A DNA stretch of 36,717 bases from Candidatus Enterenecus stercoripullorum (GTDB lineage: Bacteria; Bacillota; Clostridia; Oscillospirales; Oscillospiraceae). Under the pieces are notes generated by a model that made no database searches, was not told the DNA's origin, and was given only the letters and a program-made list of their open reading frames with translations. Shown piece by piece: positions 525-31,298 of the stretch; within the stretch, counting starts at the first letter, position 1, and every line of letters starts with the position of its first letter. The position numbers and the translations under genes were made by a program. The stretch spans positions 1 to 36,717 of the forward strand of contig DVKM01000025.1 in the NCBI GenBank assembly GCA_018716015.1, given 5' to 3'.

Positions 525-550
525 ACAGTTACTTTCCCCTTTGCGGGATA

Positions 551-659
551 GGAGCTATACGACTGGCGGAAGTGGAGCAAACCACATGAAGTATAGCGGG
601 CGTTGGATGCGCCTCAATGCCGACCGTCTGGGCGCGCCTGAATGGGTGCGCCCTTTTTT
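551..659 (+). promoter_or_regulatory. ZTP (pfl) riboswitch with intrinsic terminator, upstream of fhs
   Basis: P1 is formed by GCTATAC (554-560) and GTATAGC (591-597). It encloses the conserved GACTGGCGGA block (561-570) and a GTGG/CCAC stem (572-575/582-585). The second conserved block, CCGACCGTCTGGGC, spans 620-633. The last GGGC of that block begins a terminator: GGGCGC (630-635) pairs with GCGCCC (648-653), followed by six T (654-659). Ligand-bound aptamer and terminator therefore compete for the same bases, the usual ON-switch design for ZTP, the purine/folate stress signal. The family is known upstream of fhs, purH, folD and glyA genes; fhs follows here. Confidence 0.93.
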
Positions 660-4865: not shown

Positions 4866-4958
4866 GCAAAGCGTTTTGCGTTGGGAGAGGAGCCGTAGCG
4901 AAATGACTGAGCTTGCGCCGTAAGGCAGAAGCGAGAAATATGGAGCTTGCGGCGACGA
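4866..4958 (+). repeat. Dispersed GC-rich intergenic repeat, copy A2
   Basis: This aligns with A1 (2411-2500): GCAAAGCG, GGGAGAGGAGCCG, TGAGCTT, CGCCGTAAGGCAGAAGCGA and GAGCTTGCGGCG in the same order and spacing. Its right end supplies the 5' strand of the THF riboswitch P1 helix (4949-4954). Confidence 0.65.
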
Positions 4959-5050
4959 CAGAGTAGAGCCAGCGCGTTAAGTGCCGCGGGATGGGAGGTT
5001 GCCCGCGGACGAAACACCTTTGGTGTGCGGTGCTGTCTCGCATCCGCTGC
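4949..5050 (+). promoter_or_regulatory. THF riboswitch (class I) controlling folT-folC
   Basis: The conserved blocks of the THF-I aptamer occur in order: GAGTAG (4961-4966), GCGTTAAGTG (4973-4982), GGATGGGAGGTTG (4989-5001), GACGAA (5008-5013), GCGGTG (5027-5032) and GCATCCGCT (5040-5048). GCGGCG (4949-4954) can pair with CGCTGC (5045-5050) as P1, with one G-U pair. CCGCGGG/CCCGCGG forms an internal stem, and ACACC/GGTGT caps the other arm. The family typically sits upstream of folate transporter and folate-enzyme genes; folT starts 56 bases downstream. Confidence 0.92.
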
Positions 5051-5067
5051 CACCCTGGGAGGTCTTA

Positions 5068-22015: not shown

Positions 22016-23891
22016 CGCGAGAGGCACTCTGGGACGCCTGCTGCGCACCATTGTAGCGTTCTACCCTGTGATGGCTCCGCTGACCCTGCTGTGCATCCTG
22101 TTCAGCGCCGTAGTCAACGCCATCCCCTCTATCTTTATGCAGAATATCATCGCCGTCATTGAAGGCAGCTGGCAGTCCGGCGACTGGGCCGGCGTGTCCG
22201 GGCAAATCTTTCGCCTGGTGGGCACCCTGGCTACCGCCTATGTGATCTCCCTGATCAGCGTGTTTACCTGGACCCGGTTGATGGCCATTATGACCCAGGG
22301 GCTGCTGAAGAAGCTGCGGTGCAAGATGTTTGACGGGATGCAGGACCTGCCCATCCGCTACTTCGACACCCACAACCACGGCGACATCATGAGCTACTAT
22401 ACCAACGACATTGACACCTTGCGCCAGCTGGTATCCCAGAGCATCCCCCAACTGATCAACTCCGGGGTCATCGTGATCACCGTGGTGTTCATCATGCTCT
22501 ATTACAGCCTGTGGCTGGCGCTGGTCATTATCGCCGGGGTGGTGTGCATGCTCATTGTCATCAAGAAGGTGGGCGGCGGTTCCGCCCGGTTCTTCCGCCG
22601 CCAGCAAACCGCGCTGGGCAAGATGGAGGGCTTTGTGGAGGAGCTGATGAACGGCCAGAAGGTGGTCAAAGTCTTTTGCCACGAGGAGGAGACGGGCAAG
22701 GACTTCGACCAGGTCAACGACGCGCTGTTCTCCGACTCGAAAAAAGCCAACACCTACGCTAACACCCTCATGCCCATTCTCAACAACATGGGCAACGTGC
22801 TCTACGCTATTGTGGCCATAGTGGGCGGCCTGCTGCTGCTGTTCCAGGTCCCCAACGTCTCCCTTTCCGGCATGGCCATCAGCATCAGTATTGTCGTTCC
22901 CTTCCTGAACATGACCAAGCAGTTTGCCGGAAACATCGGCCAGGTCTCCCAGCAGATCAACTCCGTGGTCATGGGCATGGCCGGCGCCGCCCGGATCTTT
23001 GAACTGATGGACCAGAAGCCGGAGGTGGACGAAGGCACCATCACCCTGGTCAACGCCAAGGAGCAGGCCGACGGCTCGCTGAAGGAGTGCCAGGAGCGCA
23101 CCAATGTGTGGGGCTGGCGCCGGGTCAATCCCGACGGCACCGTCACCCTCACCCGCCTCACCGGCGATGTGCGCATGGAACATGTGGATTTCGGCTACGA
23201 TCCCAAAAAAACCGTTCTCCATGACATCACCTTGTATGCCGAGCCAGGGCAGAAGGTGGCCTTTGTGGGTGCCACCGGTGCTGGCAAGACCACTATCACC
23301 AACCTCATTAACCGCTTCTATGACATCCACAACGGTCGTATCCTCTACGATGGCATCGACATCATGAACATTAAAAAAGCGGATCTGCGCCGGAGCCTGG
23401 GCATTGTGCTCCAGGACACCAACCTGTTCACCGGCACCGTCATGGAAAACATCCGCTACGGCAACCTGAACGCTTGCGACGAGGAGTGTATCGCCGCGGC
23501 CCAGCTGGCCGGCGCCCACGACTTCATTACCCGTCTGCCCGACGGCTACAACACCATGCTCACCAGCAACGGTACCAACCTGTCCCAGGGCCAGCGCCAG
23601 CTGCTGGCCATCGCCCGGGCCGCCGTGGCCGATCCCCCGGTGATGATCATGGACGAGGCCACCTCTTCCATCGACACCCGTACCGAGGCCATCGTCCAGC
23701 AGGGTATGGATGCGCTGATGTGCAACCGCACGGTATTTGTCATCGCCCACCGCCTGTCCACCGTGAAGAACTCCGATGTCATCATGGTGCTGGAGCAGGG
23801 CCGGATCATTGAGCGGGGCAGCCATGAGGAACTGATTGCCAAAAAGGGCAAGTACTACCAGCTGTATACCGGTGCGTTTGAGCTAGAATAA
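22008..23891 (+). CDS. ABC exporter half-transporter, catalytic-site subunit
   Basis: A 627-residue exporter-type ABC protein with an N-terminal six-helix domain (about 20-325). An insertion of about 40 residues follows (near 345-385, containing ERTNVWGWRRVNPDG), then the ATPase domain. Walker A is VGATGAGKTT (about 419-428). The signature is NLSQGQRQ (about 524-531), with Gln in place of the second glycine. Walker B is MIMDEATSS with a normal Glu, and the H-loop is IAHRLSTV. Together with the preceding subunit, this gives one competent and one degenerate ATP site. The start overlaps the upstream stop, so translation is coupled. It is followed by a hairpin that opens repeat element B1. Confidence 0.92.
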   Translation: MNNARGTLGRLLRTIVAFYPVMAPLTLLCILFSAVVNAIPSIFMQNIIAVIEGSWQSGDWAGVSGQIFRLVGTLATAYVISLISVFTWTRLMAIMTQGLLKKLRCKMFDGMQDLPIRYFDTHNHGDIMSYYTNDIDTLRQLVSQSIPQLINSGVIVITVVFIMLYYSLWLALVIIAGVVCMLIVIKKVGGGSARFFRRQQTALGKMEGFVEELMNGQKVVKVFCHEEETGKDFDQVNDALFSDSKKANTYANTLMPILNNMGNVLYAIVAIVGGLLLLFQVPNVSLSGMAISISIVVPFLNMTKQFAGNIGQVSQQINSVVMGMAGAARIFELMDQKPEVDEGTITLVNAKEQADGSLKECQERTNVWGWRRVNPDGTVTLTRLTGDVRMEHVDFGYDPKKTVLHDITLYAEPGQKVAFVGATGAGKTTITNLINRFYDIHNGRILYDGIDIMNIKKADLRRSLGIVLQDTNLFTGTVMENIRYGNLNACDEECIAAAQLAGAHDFITRLPDGYNTMLTSNGTNLSQGQRQLLAIARAAVADPPVMIMDEATSSIDTRTEAIVQQGMDALMCNRTVFVIAHRLSTVKNSDVIMVLEQGRIIERGSHEELIAKKGKYYQLYTGAFELE

Positions 23892-23892
23892 T

Positions 23893-24110
23893 CCCTTTGG
23901 AAAGGCTGTGCCTTTCCAAAGGGTCCTTTAGCGGCCCGCCGCAGCACACCCGCCGTAAAGGACGCGGCTGGCACGTTTGCGGGCCGGGAAGAATTTTCAT
24001 CCGGGTACACCCCCCGGCCGAAAACAGGTTACAATTTTTCACGGCGCACCACACAGTGCGCCGTGAACTCTGCGAAGCTGAAAAGGGCACCGCCAGCGGC
24101 GGTGCCCTTT
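23893..24110 (+). repeat. Hairpin-bounded intergenic element B, copy 1
   Basis: The left hairpin pairs CCCTTTGGAAAGG (23893-23905) with CCTTTCCAAAGGG (23911-23923). The core, 23931-24079, aligns with the minus strand of 31256-31111: GCGGCCCGC.GCAGC, GTTTG.GGGCC, TTTTC.TCC.GGTACAC, GGCCGAAAACAG, and GAACTCTGCGA.GCT in the same order. An internal stem CACGGCGCAC/GTGCGCCGTG (24040-24049/24056-24065) replaces a GCGCC/GGCGC stem in the other copy. The right hairpin AAAGGGCACCGCC/GGCGGTGCCCTTT (24082-24094/24098-24110) also serves as terminator for the convergent importer operon. No gene is called. Confidence 0.75.
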
Positions 24111-24124
24111 CTTTTCTATCCCTG

Positions 24125-24922
24125 TCAGTCCGACAGCAGCATTCTGTCATTGTCCAACGTCCTGCCTGTCCCCTCCCGGAACTTCCGCAGCAGGTCATCC
24201 ACCGTCATGCCGGAGCGTTCCTCCCCATTCACATCCAGCACGATCTTCCCCTCCGACATCATCAGGGTACGGTTGCCCACATTCAAGGCCTGGGCCATGT
24301 TGTGGGTCACCATCAGGCAGGTGATCTTCTCCCGGGCCACCACCTGGCGGGTGAGGGCCAGCACCTGGTCGGCGGCGGCGGGGTCCAGAGCGGCGGTATG
24401 TTCGTCCAGCAGCAGCAGCTGTGGGGGCACCAGGGTAGCCATGAGCAGGGTGAGAGCCTGGCGCTGCCCGCCGGACAGAAGCCCCACCGGCTGGCTCATC
24501 CGGTCCTCCAGCCCCATGCCCAACAGGGCCAGCCGCTCCTGGAAGAAGGCCCGGTCCTTTCTGGACAGGCGGCTGAAAGGGTTGCCCTTGGCCGAGCGCA
24601 GGTAGGCCAGGGCCAAGTTCTCCTCAATGGTCATGGAGGGCGCGGTGCCCTTCAGGGGATCCTGAAACAGCCGGCCGATCCCTCGGCTGCGCCGGTGTTC
24701 CGGCTGGAAGGTGATGTCCCTCCCGCCCAGCACGATACTCCCCTCGTCCACATAGAACACGCCGGCCACAGCATTGAGCAGGGTGGACTTACCTGCCCCG
24801 TTGGATCCGATGATGGTGACGAAGTCTCCCGCCTCCAGGTGGAGGGACAGCCCGGACAGCGCTTTTTTCTCGTTGGCCGTGCCGGGATGAAAAGTTTTGG
24901 AAATCGATTTCACGTCCAGCAT
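24125..24922 (-). CDS. ABC importer ATP-binding protein (tryptophan-type TrpXYZ family)
   Basis: A 265-residue ATPase: Walker A IIGSNGAGKST (about 38-48), signature LLSGGQRQAL, and Walker B LLLLDEHTAALD with the DEHTAALD variant typical of the COG1101 group, followed by MVTHNM. It powers uptake with the permease and binding protein encoded upstream. The start is ATG 24922 behind GGGAGGGG, one base after the permease stop; a longer frame from 25015 lies within the permease gene. It is last in the operon under the tryptophan T-box at 27038-27325. It ends at the hairpin at 24082-24110. Confidence 0.9.
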   Translation of the reverse strand: MLDVKSISKTFHPGTANEKKALSGLSLHLEAGDFVTIIGSNGAGKSTLLNAVAGVFYVDEGSIVLGGRDITFQPEHRRSRGIGRLFQDPLKGTAPSMTIEENLALAYLRSAKGNPFSRLSRKDRAFFQERLALLGMGLEDRMSQPVGLLSGGQRQALTLLMATLVPPQLLLLDEHTAALDPAAADQVLALTRQVVAREKITCLMVTHNMAQALNVGNRTLMMSEGKIVLDVNGEERSGMTVDDLLRKFREGTGRTLDNDRMLLSD

Positions 24923-24923
24923 A

Positions 24924-25832
24924 TCAGGCCCCTCCCTTGCGTCCGGCAGCCATCTTCCGCTTCTGGAAGGCCACCCACCTTCTGATGCTGGGCGCGGCGA
25001 TGGCCAGGCCCACAATGGCGGCAGTGAGCAGCTTCAGGCAGTCCACCGGCACCACCTTGGTGTAAAACACGATGGCGTAGATAAAGCGGTAGATGATGGA
25101 CCCCACCACAGCGGCGGCCACCCCTTTGAACACCGTCCGGCGGCCCAGCACCGTCTCACCGATGATCAGGCAGGCCAGCCCGATGACCACAATGCCGGTT
25201 CCGGAATTGATGTCCACCGTTTTCTGGTACTGCCCCACCATTGCTCCAGCCAGGGCGGTGAGGGCATTGGAGAGGCAAAGGCCCACCGTAACGGTAAAGG
25301 TGGGGTTGACCGACGAGGCCCGGACCATGTCCCGGTTGTCCCCGGTGGCCCGGATGGACAGGCCAAGCCGGGTGCCCAGAAACAGCACCAGCAGCCCCCC
25401 GGCGGCCAGGGTAACGATGGCCGCCAGCAAAAGTTCGCTGTAACCTCCGCCAATCCCGGCATCCCGCAGCAGGGTGAAAATTGTGTCGGCCCGCAAAAGG
25501 CTGGCGTTGGACCTCCACCCCATGGCCATCAGGTTGACGGTATACAGCCCCGTGTTGGTCACAATGCCCGCCAGAATAGAGGGCACCCCCAGCCGGGTCT
25601 GGAGAAAGGCGGTGACAAAACCGGCGCAGGCCCCCGCCGCCAAAGCCGCAGGGATGGCCAGAATGGGGTGGCCCCCGGCGGCCAGGGTGACGGATACTGC
25701 GGCCCCCAGCACAAAACAGCCGTCAGTGGTCAGATCAGCGATATCCAAGATCCGGTAGCTTAAAAAGAGGGCCATGGCCACCAAGGCATACAGGAATCCC
25801 AGTTCCAACGCGGTTTGTGTAATCAGTAACAC
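24924..25832 (-). CDS. ABC importer permease (tryptophan-type TrpXYZ family)
   Basis: A 302-residue membrane protein with about eight to nine helices, related to the branched-chain/ribose-type permeases of the COG4120 group: LSYRILDIADLTTDGCFVLGAA near the start and LGLSIRATGDNRDMVRASSVN in the coupling region. The start is GTG 25832, nine bases after AAAGGAG. An ATG inside that spacing (25840) opens only a five-codon out-of-frame stretch and is ignored. It lies between the binding-protein gene (68 bases upstream) and the ATPase gene. Confidence 0.9.
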   Translation of the reverse strand: MLLITQTALELGFLYALVAMALFLSYRILDIADLTTDGCFVLGAAVSVTLAAGGHPILAIPAALAAGACAGFVTAFLQTRLGVPSILAGIVTNTGLYTVNLMAMGWRSNASLLRADTIFTLLRDAGIGGGYSELLLAAIVTLAAGGLLVLFLGTRLGLSIRATGDNRDMVRASSVNPTFTVTVGLCLSNALTALAGAMVGQYQKTVDINSGTGIVVIGLACLIIGETVLGRRTVFKGVAAAVVGSIIYRFIYAIVFYTKVVPVDCLKLLTAAIVGLAIAAPSIRRWVAFQKRKMAAGRKGGA

Positions 25833-25900
25833 TGCTTCATGCTCCTTTCCATGCCGGTGCCCCCGGCCAGCGCCGGGGCGGCAGACCAGGGAGGGCGGAA

Positions 25901-26962
25901 TCAGTCCTCCGTGGTGGTCACCTCCACCACCTGGCCATACTGCTCGAACATCGAGTAATCTGCGTTCAGCGCCGTGGCGGTCTCAGTATTGACGGTGATG
26001 ATGCCCCCGTCCATCAGGTAATAATCCTCCATCTCCTCCATGCCCTGGGTGATGGCCTGATAGGCCAGGTCGGCGGTGTAAGCCCCCAGGTCGGTATAGT
26101 TCACACCGCAGGTGGCAAAGGCGCCATTGCGTACAAAGGAGTCCGCCCCGGTATAGTGGGGGATCCCCGCCGCGGCCAGATCTTCATAGATGGCCAGCTC
26201 CGCGGCGGCAATCACATTATCCGTGGGGGTGAAAACGGCGTCCACGCCGGCGGCAATGAGGGCGGCGGAGGCGGCGATCACCTCGTCATTGGTAGTGGCG
26301 GTCTGCTCAATGTAGGAGATGTCCTTGCTATCCAGATAGGCCTTTGCCTCGGCAATGGGGGTGGCGGAGTTGGGCTCCGACAGGGAATAGAGCAGACCCA
26401 CCGTCTCCACCTGGGGATTTTGGGCCAGCATCATGTCCAGGATCAGCTGGGTGTTCAGCCCGTCGCTGGTGCCGGTGACATAGTCGATCCCGGTCAGCTC
26501 CGCTGTGGCGGGATCGGACACCGCGGCATAGACCACGGGCGTGCCCGTTTCCTCAGCGCTCACCGCAGCCACCTGGGCGGCAGTGCTGGCAATGGGGATG
26601 ATGGCGTCCACCCCGTCGGCAATGGCCTGGTCCGCAAGCTGCACCAGCACGGTCTGATCCCCCTGTCCGGAGGTGGTGGTATACTGAATGGTCACGCCGT
26701 TCTCCCCGGCGATCTCGGTCAGCCTTGCCTCAATAGCCTTGGCAATTTCATCCAGAGAGGGGTGGTCCATCTGCTTGATGATGGCCACGGTGTACGTCTC
26801 CCCCGTGCCCTGGCTGCTTTCCGCACCGGCACTGGCGGGGGTATCGCTGGCGCCGGACTGGGACTGCTGCCCGGCGCTGTTGGAACAGGCCGCCAGGGAC
26901 AGGCCCAAGGCACAGGCGGCGGTGAGGGCAAAGAGCTTCTTGACCAAATTGCATTTTTTCAT
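25901..26962 (-). CDS. ABC importer substrate-binding lipoprotein, probably tryptophan
   Basis: A 353-residue lipoprotein. A basic start (MKKCNLVKK), hydrophobic stretch and lipobox LAAC with Cys26 mark export and lipidation. A Ser/Ala/Gly-rich linker runs to residue about 50, then the periplasmic-binding fold of the ABC_sub_bind family: YTVAIIKQMDHPSLDEI, ADGVDAIIPIASTAAQVA, VDAVFTPTDNVIAAA. Family members bind aromatic amino acids or other small ligands. The upstream T-box reads UGG, so tryptophan is the likely substrate. The start is ATG 26962 behind GGAGG; in-frame codons upstream to 27301 run through the T-box and are not protein. Confidence 0.9.
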   Translation of the reverse strand: MKKCNLVKKLFALTAACALGLSLAACSNSAGQQSQSGASDTPASAGAESSQGTGETYTVAIIKQMDHPSLDEIAKAIEARLTEIAGENGVTIQYTTTSGQGDQTVLVQLADQAIADGVDAIIPIASTAAQVAAVSAEETGTPVVYAAVSDPATAELTGIDYVTGTSDGLNTQLILDMMLAQNPQVETVGLLYSLSEPNSATPIAEAKAYLDSKDISYIEQTATTNDEVIAASAALIAAGVDAVFTPTDNVIAAAELAIYEDLAAAGIPHYTGADSFVRNGAFATCGVNYTDLGAYTADLAYQAITQGMEEMEDYYLMDGGIITVNTETATALNADYSMFEQYGQVVEVTTTED

Positions 26963-27003
26963 GTTCGGTTCCTCCAATGATTTTGATTTCAGGTGGCAGA
27001 TGA

Positions 27004-27028
27004 CCGGCCGCTTCGCCAAGGCGGCCGG
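27004..27028 (-). other. Extra hairpin between the T-box terminator and the binding-protein gene
   Basis: CCGGCCGC (27004-27011) pairs with GCGGCCGG (27021-27028), with further pairing in the loop. It has no T-run. It could stabilise the mRNA 5' end after antitermination. Confidence 0.4.
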
Positions 27029-27037
27029 GGAGGTCAA

Positions 27038-27325
27038 AGCAAAGAAAAAAGCCTTTGCCCCCATCCATGGGACAAAAGCTGCTGCTTCTGCGATACCACC
27101 CAAATTGACGTTAAAAACGTCCGCTCGCTTACGCGTACCATCATACGCGCCCCGGTGGATAACGGGTGGGTGCCCGTCGGTCCCTACTTGGTCTCCCGTT
27201 CGGTCCGCCCTCCGAAGTCCATTCACCGGCCGCGCCCCGCCCCGATTCCACCATCCGGGACTCTCTGAAGGTTTGCCGCGCCGGCTACTTCTCTCCGTCA
27301 CAGGTTTCAGGTATTTTCTTGTTAT
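27038..27325 (-). promoter_or_regulatory. T-box leader, tryptophan-specific, controlling the ABC importer
   Basis: On the minus strand the T-box core GGGTGGTATCGCAG is at 27101-27088. The terminator pairs GCTTTTGTCCC with GGGGGCAAAGGC (including G-U pairs) and ends in TTTTTT near 27048. Stem I begins GGAGAGAAGTAG. The specifier loop reads GAATGGAC; TGG (27221-27219) is tryptophan and lies about 104 bases from the predicted transcription start, the same distance as in the cysteine T-box of this window. Confidence 0.92.
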
Positions 27326-27330
27326 GTGTC

Positions 27331-27359
27331 ATTATACGCATCCCCCCGGCTTTTGTCAA
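27331..27359 (-). promoter_or_regulatory. Consensus promoter of the tryptophan importer operon
   Basis: On the minus strand a perfect TTGACA (27359-27354), 17-base spacer and a perfect TATAAT (27336-27331). Full consensus fits a promoter whose control lies in the T-box rather than at initiation. Confidence 0.93.
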
Positions 27360-27411
27360 CCCCTTTTGCGAGAAAATTTTTTACCGAGCTAAAGCGGCAC
27401 AGTGATTTTTC

Positions 27412-27462
27412 CTGAAAATATTTCAGATTTTCCATGGGGTGGGCCCCTATTTTGTTGTATAA
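27412..27462 (+). promoter_or_regulatory. Candidate control region of the ECF sigma gene
   Basis: CTGAAA (27412-27417) and TTTCAG (27421-27426) form a palindrome around ATA. A TATAAT box follows at about 27459, some 35 bases before the ATG. No normal -35 box stands 17 bases upstream, so the promoter type is uncertain; it could be autoregulated by the sigma factor itself. Confidence 0.4.
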
Positions 27463-27498
27463 TAGGGTAAAGAGACCAGAAGGAGAGGAGGGAACGCC

Positions 27499-28059
27499 AT
27501 GGGCCGCCGGGACGAGGACCGGAGGCTGGCCAGCCGGATGGCCCGCCGGGCGGCGGGGGCGCTGGAGGAGTTCCAGACCGCCTACACCCCCCTGCTGCGC
27601 TACATCATCGCCCCCATCCTCCACGACCAGCGGGACCAGGAGGAGTGCCTGGCCGATGCCATCCACCGGGCCTGGGTGTCCATCGAGCGGTTTAACCCGA
27701 ATCGGGGATCCCTGGCCGCATGGCTGGCCGCTATCGCCCGGAACGCCGCCCTCAACCGCCTGCGGGAGCAGGGCCGCTACCCCCAGTGGGAACCCTTGGA
27801 CGACCACCCCCACCTGTCCGACCCCGCCCAGGGGCCGGAGGAGGTCCTGCTCACCGCCGAGCTGGCCCAGGCTCTGCGCCGGGCGGTGGATGGGCTGTCC
27901 CCCTGGGACCGGAACCTGTTCCTGCGCAAGTACTACTACTATCAGTCCACCGCCCAGATGGCCGCCGAGTTGGGACTCACCGTCCGGGGGGTGGAGGGGC
28001 GGCTGTACCGCATCCGCAAGCGCCTACAAAAGGAGTTGAGAGGTGACTGGCATGACTGA
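27499..28059 (+). CDS. ECF-type RNA polymerase sigma factor
   Basis: A 186-residue sigma-70-family protein with regions 2 and 4 only. Region 2 is near residues 22-90, with QEECLADAIHRAWVSIERF and NRGSLAAWLAAIARNAALNRLRE as the core-binding and -10-reading helices. Region 4 is near 125-180, with LSPWDRNLFLRKYYYYQSTAQMAAELGLTVRGVEGRLYRIRKRL as helix-turn-helix. The start is ATG 27499 behind AGGAGAGGAGGG. It overlaps the following membrane-protein gene by eight bases, the usual arrangement of a sigma factor with its controlling partner. Its target promoters are unknown. Confidence 0.92.
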   Translation: MGRRDEDRRLASRMARRAAGALEEFQTAYTPLLRYIIAPILHDQRDQEECLADAIHRAWVSIERFNPNRGSLAAWLAAIARNAALNRLREQGRYPQWEPLDDHPHLSDPAQGPEEVLLTAELAQALRRAVDGLSPWDRNLFLRKYYYYQSTAQMAAELGLTVRGVEGRLYRIRKRLQKELRGDWHD

Positions 28060-29482
28060 CCGAAGCTTTGACCAACTGCTCTACCAGGGGGCAGCCCAGC
28101 TGCCTCCCCAGACGGTGGGACAGGATCCCCCCGACCCCTGGCGGAAGGCGCTGTGGCGGGTGTGCTGGGGACTGGCCCTCACCACCATCACCCTGAATTT
28201 TCTCGATCTCCAGTATATCCTTCCCGCCCTGGGGTCGGTGTTGCTCTACCTGGGCTTCCGCGCCCTGCGGCGGGAGAACGGCTGGCTCCGGATGGGCTAT
28301 GGCCTGTCTGCCCTGTTCCTGCTTCTCCGGGGCGTCATCACCATTCTTAACGCCACCCCTCTGGTCTCCACCTCCAGCGGGTGGGGCTACGTCCTGGGAA
28401 TGGCGGTGTGGCTGTGCAACCTGCTGCTGGCCATCGCCCTGTGGCAGGGGCTGAAGGAGGTGTTCCGCAAGGCGGGGCAGAAACCCAAGACCGGGGCTGC
28501 CGGTGGGACGGTCCTCTGCTATCTCTTTCTCTTCCTGCTGGCCCTGGTCAGCGCCCAGGGTCTCCTGCTCTGGCCCATCGTCCTGCTGTGGATCGGCCTG
28601 CTCATCGGCCTGTTCCGGGTGAGCCGTAGCCTGGACCAGGCGGGATACGCTATCTCCCCCGCTCCGGTACGCTTCTCTGAGCAGCGGGTGATCCTGGTCT
28701 GGCTGGGCCTGCTGCTGGCCGCGGTGCTGGCCTGCCTGTTCCTCTTCCGCCGCTACCCGGTGGAGGCGTCCCCTGCCCAGGTGGAAACAGGGCAGGAGGA
28801 GCTGCGGCAGAAACTGCTGGTGCTGGGCTTCCCGGAGGAGGTGCTCTCCGACCTCACCGACGGGGAGGTCGCCCTGCTGGAGGGGGCGCAAACTGTAGAC
28901 GCGGAATCTTTTGCCTCCCGTCCAGAGCTTCCCGATGAGATCGAACAGCTCTCCATGCGCTTTGTTCAGGTGGAACTGCCCCAGGACCGGGTGCGCTACT
29001 TTCTCTGGTTCTCCTGGGAGGAGGCCCCCGACCACCGCCTCCAGGAAGGGCTGGAGATCCAGCCGAACGGTCAAAACGCGTTGACCATGAACTATGACAT
29101 GCTCCCCTCCGGCCGCCTGCTGTGGGAGGAGGAGGGACAGCTGTACCAGGCTCCCATCTCGGGCACGTACGAAGGCCACACCCAGAACAGCATCTTCTTT
29201 GGCCCCTCCACCTACAATTCCTTCGCCTTCCACTTCTCCCTGCCCGCCCGGGGGGAGCGCATCCGGGGCTATGTGAGCTATGAGGCATACGACGCCTACT
29301 CCGGGTGGCATATCTTCAACGCCATTGCCAACTATGTCCACCAGGAGAGCTGGCTGGTCTACCCCTGGGAGACCCCTCTCCAGCACCAGTGGCGGAACTG
29401 GAACAACACCGACGAAGTCTTCCCCGCCCGGCAATTCCTCACCATGTTCACGCTCAACAAGGACGACATGGAGACGGAATGA
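28052..29482 (+). CDS. Membrane protein coupled to the ECF sigma factor, possible anti-sigma partner
   Basis: A 476-residue protein not recognised by family. A short cytoplasmic N-terminus (about 35 residues, FDQLLYQGAAQLPPQT...) is followed by about eight membrane helices (roughly 35-240). A C-terminal region of about 230 residues, probably extracellular, follows: it opens with GQEELRQKLLVLGFPEEVLSDL and contains aromatic-rich beta-like segments such as VRYFLWFSWEE and NSFAFHFSL. There is no zinc-binding anti-sigma motif (HxxxCxxC). The start chosen is ATG 28052, eight bases after GAGAGG; GTG 28043 behind AAAGGAG is an alternative. The eight-base overlap with the sigma gene is the main reason to suspect a regulatory role. 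The gene is followed by a hairpin at 29499. Confidence 0.75.
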   Translation: MTDRSFDQLLYQGAAQLPPQTVGQDPPDPWRKALWRVCWGLALTTITLNFLDLQYILPALGSVLLYLGFRALRRENGWLRMGYGLSALFLLLRGVITILNATPLVSTSSGWGYVLGMAVWLCNLLLAIALWQGLKEVFRKAGQKPKTGAAGGTVLCYLFLFLLALVSAQGLLLWPIVLLWIGLLIGLFRVSRSLDQAGYAISPAPVRFSEQRVILVWLGLLLAAVLACLFLFRRYPVEASPAQVETGQEELRQKLLVLGFPEEVLSDLTDGEVALLEGAQTVDAESFASRPELPDEIEQLSMRFVQVELPQDRVRYFLWFSWEEAPDHRLQEGLEIQPNGQNALTMNYDMLPSGRLLWEEEGQLYQAPISGTYEGHTQNSIFFGPSTYNSFAFHFSLPARGERIRGYVSYEAYDAYSGWHIFNAIANYVHQESWLVYPWETPLQHQWRNWNNTDEVFPARQFLTMFTLNKDDMETE

Positions 29483-29498
29483 TCGCGAGGGATTCCCC

Positions 29499-29536
29499 GT
29501 GCCCAGCTTTTCCAGAAAGCCGGGCACGAACTTTTT
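29499..29536 (+). terminator. Probable terminator after the sigma-partner gene
   Basis: GTGCCC-GCTTT pairs with AAAGC-GGGCAC (29499-29527, one internal mismatch), then a run of five T at 29532-29536. ylbJ, 60 bases further on, would then need another promoter or read-through. Confidence 0.6.
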
Positions 29537-29595
29537 CGGACAGGCAAACCGGACAGCCCCCCGCGCATATCCTTTCCCGTGAGGGGGTGAGAGAG

Positions 29596-30774
29596 ATGCT
29601 TCGCATTCTGCGCCAGCGGTGGCTGCGGGACCTGCTGGTCACCATGGCCGTGCTGGTGTCCACCGCGGCGCTGGTGGCCGCGCCGGAGCAGGCCATGGAG
29701 GGGGCCAAGAACGGGCTGGCCCTGTGCTTCAACGTCATCGTCCCCTCTCTGTTTCCCTTTTTCGTGTTGTCCTCCCTAGTGGTGGACCTGGGACTGGCCG
29801 CCTACTTGGGGGGCGCTCTGGAGGGGCTGATGCGCCCATTGTTCCGGGTGAGCGGCAGCTGCTCGGCAGCGGTGGTGCTGGGCTTCATCGGCGGCTATCC
29901 TGTGGGGGCGCGCACCGCCCTACAACTCTACCAGCAGGGGCTGTGCTCTAAGGTGGAGGCGGAGCGGCTGCTGGCCTTCTGCAACAACTCGGGCCCGGCC
30001 TTCATTTTCGGCGTGGTGGGGGCAGGAGTGTTCGGGGATGGCCGGGTGGGTCTGCTACTCTATCTCACCCACACCCTGGCCTCATTGCTGGTGGGCCTCC
30101 TTTTTCGCTTTCATGGCGGTTCCAGGCGCGCCGGCGCCACCAGCCCCCGCCGGTCCAAGCCCATTGAGACGGTCACCGTACCCGCCGCCTTCACCGGGGC
30201 GGTTACCCGATCCTTTCAGAGCACCCTGAACATCTGCGCCTTTGTGGTGTTCTTCTCTGTGGTCCTCCAGCTGCTAGCCGCCTGGGGAGCCCTGTCCGCT
30301 CTGGCCCAGGCTCTGGGCCTGCTGGGGCTCAGCCCAGAGTGGGCCCGCCGGCTGGTGGCCGGGCTGCTGGAACTGTCCTCCGGGGTGTCCTCCCTCAGCG
30401 GTGGCAGCGGCCTTGCCGGCCGGGCCTCCATGGCCGCCTTCATGCTGGGCTGGGCGGGGCTGTCTGTCCACTGCCAGGTACTGTCCTTTCTCCTGGACAG
30501 CGGGCTCTCCGCCCGGATCTATCTGGCCGGAAAGCTGTGCCATGGCCTCATCGCCGCCGCCCTCACCTGGCTGGCCACCCAGCTCTTCCCCATCTCCCAG
30601 TCCGTGTCCCACTACCTCATCCAGCAGACGGAATCCATCGCCTCCCTGGACTTTTCCACCGCCCTGGCTATCTCCACCTGCGCCGCCTTCGGCTGCTGGC
30701 TGTTGTTTACCGCCCTGTGTGCCATGCTGGCAAGAAAAAGGTATGGAAAAATCTCGAATCATCATGTATACTAA
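29596..30774 (+). CDS. ylbJ: Sporulation integral membrane protein YlbJ
   Basis: A 392-residue polytopic membrane protein with nucleoside-recognition (Gate) type repeats. The family pattern is clear: CFNVIVPSLFPFFVLSSLVVDLG, GFIGGYPVGARTALQLYQQG, AFCNNSGPAFIFGVVG, and a matching set near residues 250-300, GLLELSSGVSSL. YlbJ in Bacillus subtilis is needed for spore cortex formation under sigma-E control. Length is close to family norm. The start is ATG 29596 behind GAGGGGG; longer in-frame codons to 29305 overlap the preceding gene and are rejected. Its presence suggests an endospore-forming host. Confidence 0.9.
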   Translation: MLRILRQRWLRDLLVTMAVLVSTAALVAAPEQAMEGAKNGLALCFNVIVPSLFPFFVLSSLVVDLGLAAYLGGALEGLMRPLFRVSGSCSAAVVLGFIGGYPVGARTALQLYQQGLCSKVEAERLLAFCNNSGPAFIFGVVGAGVFGDGRVGLLLYLTHTLASLLVGLLFRFHGGSRRAGATSPRRSKPIETVTVPAAFTGAVTRSFQSTLNICAFVVFFSVVLQLLAAWGALSALAQALGLLGLSPEWARRLVAGLLELSSGVSSLSGGSGLAGRASMAAFMLGWAGLSVHCQVLSFLLDSGLSARIYLAGKLCHGLIAAALTWLATQLFPISQSVSHYLIQQTESIASLDFSTALAISTCAAFGCWLLFTALCAMLARKRYGKISNHHVY

Positions 30775-30803
30775 AAGCAACCCCAGAGAGAGAAGGAATG
30801 GCC

Positions 30804-31013
30804 ATGCTCTTTGAGAAAGATATGGAACCCCGGTGCGCCTACTGCAAGCGGGGCTCCCCCCTGGATGAGGAGACAGTGGTATGCGTCAAGCGGGGGGTGG
30901 TGCCCGCCACCGGGTCCTGCCACCGGTTCCGGTATGATCCCCTGAAACGGATCCCGCCCAAGCCGGTGTCCGTGGATTTCTCCCATCTGAAGGAGGAGGA
31001 TTTTGTGCTGTAA
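30804..31013 (+). CDS. Conserved-looking 69-residue four-cysteine protein
   Basis: A short soluble protein downstream of ylbJ. It has a CAYC pair near residues 11-14, then VVCVKRGVV and GSCHRFRYDP, giving four cysteines and a nearby histidine that could bind zinc. The sequence ends with a basic-proline stretch (DPLKRIPPKPV). The start is ATG 30804, seven bases after GAGAGAAGG; an ATG six bases earlier is too close to the ribosome site. The gene is 29 bases from the ylbJ stop, so it is probably co-transcribed with it. Function not recognised; it resembles small Clostridia proteins of unknown role. Confidence 0.75.
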   Translation: MLFEKDMEPRCAYCKRGSPLDEETVVCVKRGVVPATGSCHRFRYDPLKRIPPKPVSVDFSHLKEEDFVL

Positions 31014-31056
31014 TTTTCCCCGGAGGTACGCATCCCCCGGTTGAAAAATCAGAAGA

Positions 31057-31295
31057 AACCGCCAGCGCTCACAGCAAAAAAGTGAGCGCTGGCGGTTAAC
31101 TTGTCAAAAAAGCCTCGCAGAGTTCGCGCCCGCAGGCGCAAATCAATCGAAATCTGTTTTCGGCCAGGGCGTGTACCGGGACGAAAACACTTCTTGGCCC
31201 ACAAACATGCAAGGCGGGGCAAACTTTTCTCCGACGAGTGCGCTGCAGCGGGCCGCAACCTTCCCATCGGAAAAGGCAAAGCCTTTTCCGATGGG
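31057..31295 (-). repeat. Hairpin-bounded intergenic element B, copy 2
   Basis: Read on the minus strand, it opens with the hairpin CCCATCGGAAAAGGC/GCCTTTTCCGATGGG (31295-31263), eight bases after the kinase stop. This hairpin matches that of copy 1 in its GGAAA-GGC core while the outer pairs differ in a paired way. The core (31256-31111) matches 23931-24079. It ends with a 16-bp hairpin AACCGCCAGCGCTCAC/GTGAGCGCTGGCGGTT (31057-31072/31082-31097), which also terminates the convergent ylbJ unit. Like copy 1, it fills the whole gap between convergent genes. Confidence 0.75.
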
Positions 31296-31298
31296 ACG

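Follow-up and report, generated by a model that had tools for sequence, protein, structure and literature searches.

A short hairpin-rich repeat of Oscillospirales genomes, very probably a non-autonomous DNA transposon that often duplicates the hairpins into which it inserts

The 36,717-nucleotide contig DVKM01000025.1 of Candidatus Enterenecus stercoripullorum (assembly GCA_018716015.1), hereafter the window, is one entire contig (G000:C7) of a 1.83-Mb draft genome (G000, 87% complete) and carries two related copies of a short, hairpin-rich element, copy 1 on the plus strand (23893–24080) and copy 2 on the minus strand (31096–31298). We conclude with high confidence that this element is a ~200 bp non-autonomous DNA transposon, or miniature inverted-repeat transposable element (MITE), with a probable IS1182-type mobiliser and a target duplication defined by a hairpin. 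Both copies had been noticed in a first-pass annotation of the contig, and their coordinates and orientation were confirmed: the alignment of the two shows shared blocks in the same order, and a BLAST search of the own genome with copy 1 as query recovered copy 2 (E 9.9e-17, 74% identity). That annotation had left three possible natures open. The reading as a small non-autonomous mobile repeat is upheld by the dispersal of the copies, by their terminal inverted repeats and target duplications, and by the existence of empty sites and of an IS1182-type partner; the terminator-associated element survives as a target preference; the third, an undescribed structured RNA, is weighed below with the evidence on the interior hairpins.

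Further copies were found in the host genome as well as in its relatives. Two covariance models were used, R1 built from six own-genome copies and R2, a whole-element model, from 33 copies, both with approximate E-values (short calibration). In the own genome, R1 found 12 strong places (E ≤1.8e-10), six of which are the model's own members. Of 60 genomes searched with the same model, 20 (the own one among them) carry the element, with dozens of copies in some relatives and at least 51 in one genome, a count equal to the number of candidates scored there. In a sample of 295 genomes from the order, with eight candidates scored per genome, R2 detected the element in 40, the own genome among them (21 of 148 genera, six families). 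In a sample of 299 from the phylum it did so in two, namely the own genome and one congener. Among the genomes in these draws, the element was found in a single order.

A 19-base pattern taken from the conserved right part had exact matches in at least 119 stretches of GTDB genomes, 80 of which were listed; R1 run on these 80 loci and on two IMG/VR loci gave 82 matches at E ≤0.001, some loci having two and some none. Model matches lie in the named records of Flavonifractor plautii ATCC 29863 (L186), Papillibacter cinnamivorans DSM 12816 (L154) and Pseudoflavonifractor sp. (L183), and in metagenome bins of Dysosmobacter (L184), Candidatus Intestinimonas pullistercoris (L156) and Candidatus Acutalibacter pullistercoris (L167), genera that we take to belong to Oscillospirales. 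A single plasmid record was matched, the 861-kb replicon of Vescimonas fastidiosa, with 15 partial matches, as were a single phage record (MT835961.1) and two IMG/VR contigs. The contigs classed as viral carry copies (two on the 4,490-base IMG/VR contig L228, others on L229 and on MT835961.1), and such copies are a possible transfer route. A literature search over titles and abstract openings, among the matches listed and with few subscription journals covered, returned no description of the element family.

To define the ends, 181 distinct copies were gathered with a regular expression that described the right core together with a stem; GAACTCTGCGAGGCTTTTT is the pattern by which copies were chosen, and intact right ends are over-represented in the set because most copies came through the 19-base pattern. 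A flanking direct repeat scoring at least 13 was found in 75 of the 171 copies with enough flank, of which ten were contig-edge artefacts (score 110) and were removed. This left flanking repeats in 65 of 161 testable copies, compared with 1 of 170 mismatched left-right controls. The 65 duplications are not all independent, since L049, L050, L062 and L063 represent one orthologous site. The repeats are 14–43 bp long (median 30), and 27 of the 65 are perfect. The stretch that they enclose has a median length of 204 bp over the 65 copies (modal length 203–204 bp) and begins with CAGNCTGTC[A/G]AAAAA on the left and ends with TTTTT[T/C]GACANNCTG on the right, an inverted repeat that varies between subfamilies; the CAGNCTGTC.../...GACANNCTG terminal inverted repeats are present in many of the duplication-bearing copies. 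The element is non-coding (the longest internal ATG open reading frame (ORF) has a median of 25 aa and a maximum of 65, compared with 23 and 80 in shuffled sequence), and its G+C content is 47–65% in 105 copies.

The duplicated sequence is in most cases a hairpin. In 51 of the 65 repeats, a hairpin outscores 99% of random stretches of matched length. Where a repeat has any hairpin, the best one spans a median of 94% of its length. Of 102 R2-bounded copies, 72 have a strong hairpin in the 50 nt beside at least one end (both sides in 38, left only in 17, right only in 17); one is present in 4% of random stretches.

Sites with and without the element could be compared directly. At the 3′ end of a gene that we take to be enoyl-CoA hydratase-like, two loci (L291 in G001 and L292 in G010) have a single CTTACTTGTTCTGGAAGT[G/T]CTTCTCAGC (28 nt) and no element, and three others with the same outer flank (L287, L288 and L289 in G019, G021 and G006) have the element between two copies of 27–29 nt. 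Eighteen relatives' loci were inspected at the gene neighbouring copy 1. Six of them (L317, L320, L325, L327, L329, L330) show the gene pair of copy 1 with one hairpin and without the element, L328 has this pair, again without the element, with two hairpins that differ from each other, and L316 (G020) shows it with a stretch that resembles a remnant by eye and in which R2 finds nothing; L326 is described below, and the remaining nine have different neighbours. For copy 2, the 12 relatives' loci at the kinase-like gene gave no R2 match and none has the same convergent neighbour (by eye), so that no clean empty site was obtained.

Two further observations concern these sites. At L326 (G019:C144), on a contig edge, the right part of another subtype lies directly at the end of the ATPase-like gene of copy 1 (R2 E 0.0018, truncated by the edge), perhaps inserted independently at the same site. 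At L290, L293 and L297, where the gene 3′ end is as in L287, this 3′ end is repeated over ~50–58 nt around different inserts, so that the genus seems to contain further families of elements that duplicate the 3′ ends of genes; similar left parts are seen in L072 and L079 (by eye).

The ends and targets of the element are shared with IS1182 elements. IS1182-family transposase genes (PF13751) were found in 14 of the 60 genomes, and the end motif of the element was picked out, among matches to a looser pattern, in 9 of 19 IS1182 loci, eight from the same genus and one from the same order. The end sequence is identical or near-identical over 15–22 bp between the element and the IS1182 ends. Two of these loci, L235 and L244, are complete: their transposases score 383 and 386 bits with NF033551 (cut-off 270), the inverted repeats at their ends match, and a single hairpin sequence recurs on either side of each. 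The 12 insertion sequence (IS) ends picked all adjoin hairpins scoring 8–16 (random 95th percentile 7, 99th 12), their flanks having already been seen when picking. ISfinder lists long direct repeats for IS1182. The IS1182-family transposons of the same genus are thus likely mobilisers of the element in trans, to judge by their ends and flanks. The element itself contains no ORF of transposase size, and its own genome has no PF13751 match; it is likely a dependent of the IS1182 family and not a member.

A derivation of the interior from IS1182 was considered and rejected. When the 65 duplication-bearing copies and both window copies were compared by BLAST with the 19 IS1182 loci (E up to 1), the strong ones among the 25 best of 168 matches fell at the element ends (the top one with E 2e-4 over 42 bp), and the highest-ranking match in the interior had an E of 0.026. 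Likewise, no clear link was found between copy number and IS1182 presence, as PF13751 occurs in 4 of 12 genomes with at least 12 matches (G001, G006, G010, G011) and in 10 of the 48 others.

The transposase family of IS1272 and TnSha1 from staphylococci is the same as that of the presumed mobiliser (NF033551), and, unlike these, the element has no transposase gene. In the relevant passages of Wan et al. (PMC5678879), IS1272, of the IS1182 family, replaces stem-loops without duplication, and an alternative is drawn in which joining at the 5′ feet of the stem-loop duplicates all of it. Passages of Furi et al. (PMC4923244) describe blunt hairpin deletions for IS1272 and TnSha1, and Siguier et al. 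are cited in both papers for the targeting of palindromes by some IS1182 members. As with our element, the hairpin targets described there have no common sequence, and some lie at terminators or just downstream of genes. The copies reported here resemble products of the published alternative, and L235 and L244 suggest that the IS behaves likewise; we therefore consider that the element is probably moved by an IS1182-type transposase cutting at hairpin feet.

In the mechanism that we propose, an IS1182-family DDE transposase would probably recognise the terminal inverted repeats in trans and pick DNA able to form hairpins, for the most part the terminator-like ones at gene 3′ ends. On each strand, a 3′ end of the element would be joined at the hairpin's 5′ foot. 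Repair of the gaps would then copy the entire hairpin, which would therefore set the length of the target duplication. With the terminator retained, often on both sides, transcription would hardly be disturbed and copies could therefore accumulate.

Several observations weigh against this explanation. The evidence for transposition comes from sequence comparison. No flanking repeat at threshold was found for 96 of the 161 copies, nor for either window copy. The duplication fails to reach the hairpin threshold in 14 of the 65 cases, among them the clearest empty-site case (L287–L289), whose duplication is not a strong hairpin, and 30 of the 102 R2-bounded copies have no strong hairpin within 50 nt on either side; these 30 could be products of a stem-loop replacement of the IS1272 type. 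In the passages on IS1272 and TnSha1, the target hairpin is deleted or replaced, whereas the flanking repeats here, where seen, are mostly the whole hairpin. At L240, which has a transposase fragment only, the hairpins at the two ends differ. Finally, no PF13751 match was obtained in G000 nor in seven other copy-rich genomes (G009, G013, G019, G020, G021, G025, G042), where the mobiliser may be absent, lost or missed in the drafts, and the copies may be relics. Such copy-rich genomes without a detected IS1182 transposase would also suit another enzyme, for example a transposase of the Y1 type associated with repetitive extragenic palindromes (REP), the likeness to IS1182 ends then being convergent. 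We consider this very unlikely given the 15–22 bp of shared end sequence, the inverted repeats at both ends and the same manner of duplicating hairpins in L235 and L244.

Inward from the left-end hairpin H0, the interior of the element contains the hairpins P1 (with an inner P1b), P2 and P3, followed by GAACTCTGCGAGGC and a T run. When 104 distinct copies (the matches in 100 chosen sources) were aligned to R2, 696 cells were changed on both sides of a pair, compared with 193 after shuffling and at most 120 with slid partners. A structure-blind MAFFT alignment of 33 copies gave 213 such cells, compared with 62.5 in shuffles and at most 45 with slid partners. Changes on both sides are therefore far above the shuffled level, and the pairing is real.

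This very strong covariation is what a functional structured RNA would show, carried by or derived from the mobile element and acting in the 3′ region of host messages, and the high conservation of the unpaired blocks points the same way, even if the 19-base search pattern selected for one of them. An RNA under selection should, however, tolerate G-U pairs, as do 20 tRNAs from the same loci that served as a control (G-U 24, A-C 2, at fixed positions). In P1–P3 the non-standard cells of the element comprise 21 G-U and 27 A-C (13 and 18 in the MAFFT alignment), which differs from the tRNAs with a Fisher p of 4e-5 (7e-5 for the MAFFT alignment). Adding the poorly aligned P1b brings the counts to 39 and 71, and the single hairpins give 6 G-U and 11 A-C in P3 and 13 and 108 in P2. 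There is thus no excess of G-U, and RNA structure is not supported. At one P2 position (alignment A7, columns 269/281), an A stands opposite a C in 78 of 105 copies, which would read as G-U only on the other strand. The patchy presence across genomes also argues against an RNA function, and no credible match for the element was found in Rfam 15 (whole window; copy 1 at a lax threshold; 20 loci at gathering score), so that no identity to a described RNA family appeared there. The structured RNA foreseen in the first-pass annotation is, in our assessment, unlikely in spite of the covariation.

The near-equal numbers of G-U and A-C match the decay of DNA palindromes, and DNA hairpins or templated arm repair fit better. 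In quasipalindrome correction, a change in one arm of a DNA palindrome is copied to the other arm, and the paired changes could stem from such template-switch repair, hence from mutation and not from selection. The pairs indeed change from one Watson-Crick type to another and leave hardly any intermediate cells (e.g. UA 59, CG 42 and no mismatch), and mean conservation in unpaired columns (0.74) does not exceed that in paired ones (0.76). The P3-like hairpin of L316 differs from that of copy 1 by a matched change (by eye), a weak case, as R2 finds no element there. Repair alone does not explain the blocks that are near-fixed across families (such as ACTCTGCGAGGC), for which the search pattern is partly responsible, and we hold this origin of the paired changes to be a serious possibility, rated somewhat below even. 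Within the transposon reading, the interior hairpins would be kept paired at the DNA level either as a need of transposition or by such template-guided matching of the arms. A somewhat less probable idea, which we advance tentatively, is that transposition reads DNA shape twice, the target hairpin being cut at its two 5′ feet and the interior fixed-loop DNA hairpins being selected for recognition by the machinery. If true, the duplication would be the hairpin itself, whatever its length. Two different inserts of ~45–80 nt recur in the P2 loop (L005, L083 and L205; L042, L110 and L221; by eye), as if this loop were a nesting site.

Gene context was read with a crude ORF caller for copies with both neighbours within 400 nt. 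Among 127 copies, 50 lie between convergent genes, 48 between tandem genes with the element in sense, 22 between tandem genes in antisense, and 7 between divergent genes. The corresponding numbers are 28, 34, 13 and 7 for 82 copies with R2 ends, and 22, 30, 9 and 5 for 66 copies with R2 ends and longer ORFs. Gene 3′ ends are thus favoured, as targeting of terminators would predict. Tandem copies are also more often in sense (48 vs 22, 34 vs 13 and 30 vs 9; p 0.001–0.003), which speaks for the RNA explanation and is the best remaining hint of an effect at the RNA level; the bias may reflect insertion polarity or selection in transcripts. One copy (L004, G000:C13:48087-48215, minus strand) lies between genes that, from their protein starts, we take to be groES-like and groEL-like, presumably an essential operon.

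The two window copies differ in their state of preservation. Both sit between convergent ORFs, begin right after a stop codon and are followed past the right end by one terminator-like hairpin. The left terminal repeat has diverged in both. Copy 1 (R2 match 23889–24088, E 9.9e-26) also has a shortened right end, lacking ~13 bases present as GGCTTTTTTGACA in other copies (by eye), and the gene whose stop codon directly precedes it is presumably ABC-transporter-like. It comprises the left-end hairpin H0 (23893–23923), the hairpin domain P1 (23932–23986, outer arms 23932–23939 and 23979–23986), P2 with a GTACAC-type loop (23993–24024), P3 (24038–24067) and the conserved GAACTCTGCGA block with the shortened right end AAGCTG (24065–24080), all on the plus strand. 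Copy 2 (R2 match 31097–31298, E 2.3e-44) is full length, with H0 at 31263–31295, P1 at 31196–31255 (outer arms 31248–31255 and 31196–31203), P2 at 31156–31188, P3 at 31123–31142 and the right terminal repeat TTTTTTGACAAGTTAA at 31096–31111, all on the minus strand. In duplication-bearing copies, H0 includes the left terminal inverted repeat.

As first described, the outer pairs of the two H0 hairpins and the sequences of the two inner right stems (P3) differ between the copies with pairing kept. Each of the stretches marked at the time folds more stably than any of 200 shuffles (z −8.4 and −8.0), with the neighbouring terminators included in the fold. Their ends at 24081–24110 and 31058–31096 are in fact these terminator-like hairpins (no strand assigned), which adjoin the element and lie outside the element proper; each is single, and that of copy 1 is its presumed target. 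The convergent setting proposed for both copies was found, and the claim that they fill the whole gap nearly holds for copy 1, which with its terminator occupies almost all of 23892–24124, but not for copy 2, where ~44 bp (31014–31057) are left over. Elsewhere in the window, Rfam matches above the gathering score are a ZMP/ZTP riboswitch (549–640, plus strand), a THF riboswitch (4957–5051, plus strand) and a T-box leader (27065–27310, minus strand).

Short repeats of other bacteria share parts of this picture. Among the pneumococcal repeats BOX, RUP and SPRITE, RUP is linked to IS630 and has a short target. All three resemble our element in being short and present in many copies; BOX and RUP are also bounded by inverted repeats, show target duplications and are predicted to fold tightly, and SPRITE is enriched near gene 3′ ends (passages of PMC3049150). 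Their hosts differ, and a hairpin-defined duplication is absent from the passages on them (PMC3049150). Parts of a review on bacterial MITEs (PMC10969869) likewise describe short, non-coding elements with terminal inverted repeats, direct repeats, presumed mobilisation in trans by IS and folded transcripts, which are typically AT-rich, unlike the present one with its 47–65% G+C; the terms IS1182, hairpin and Clostridi- do not appear in the main text of this review.

Folded MITEs such as BOX and RUP are thus already known, and the combination of whole-hairpin duplication and DNA-like covariation is an unusual variant. The element provides many natural examples of complete-hairpin duplication, which the IS1272 model drew only as an alternative, and it has cultured hosts in Flavonifractor plautii and Papillibacter cinnamivorans. 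It also accounts for a group of intergenic sequences in gut Clostridia whose conservation and good folding could lead them to be taken for regulatory RNAs, and a simple strand test, comparing G-U with A-C, can help to separate DNA palindromes from RNA structure.

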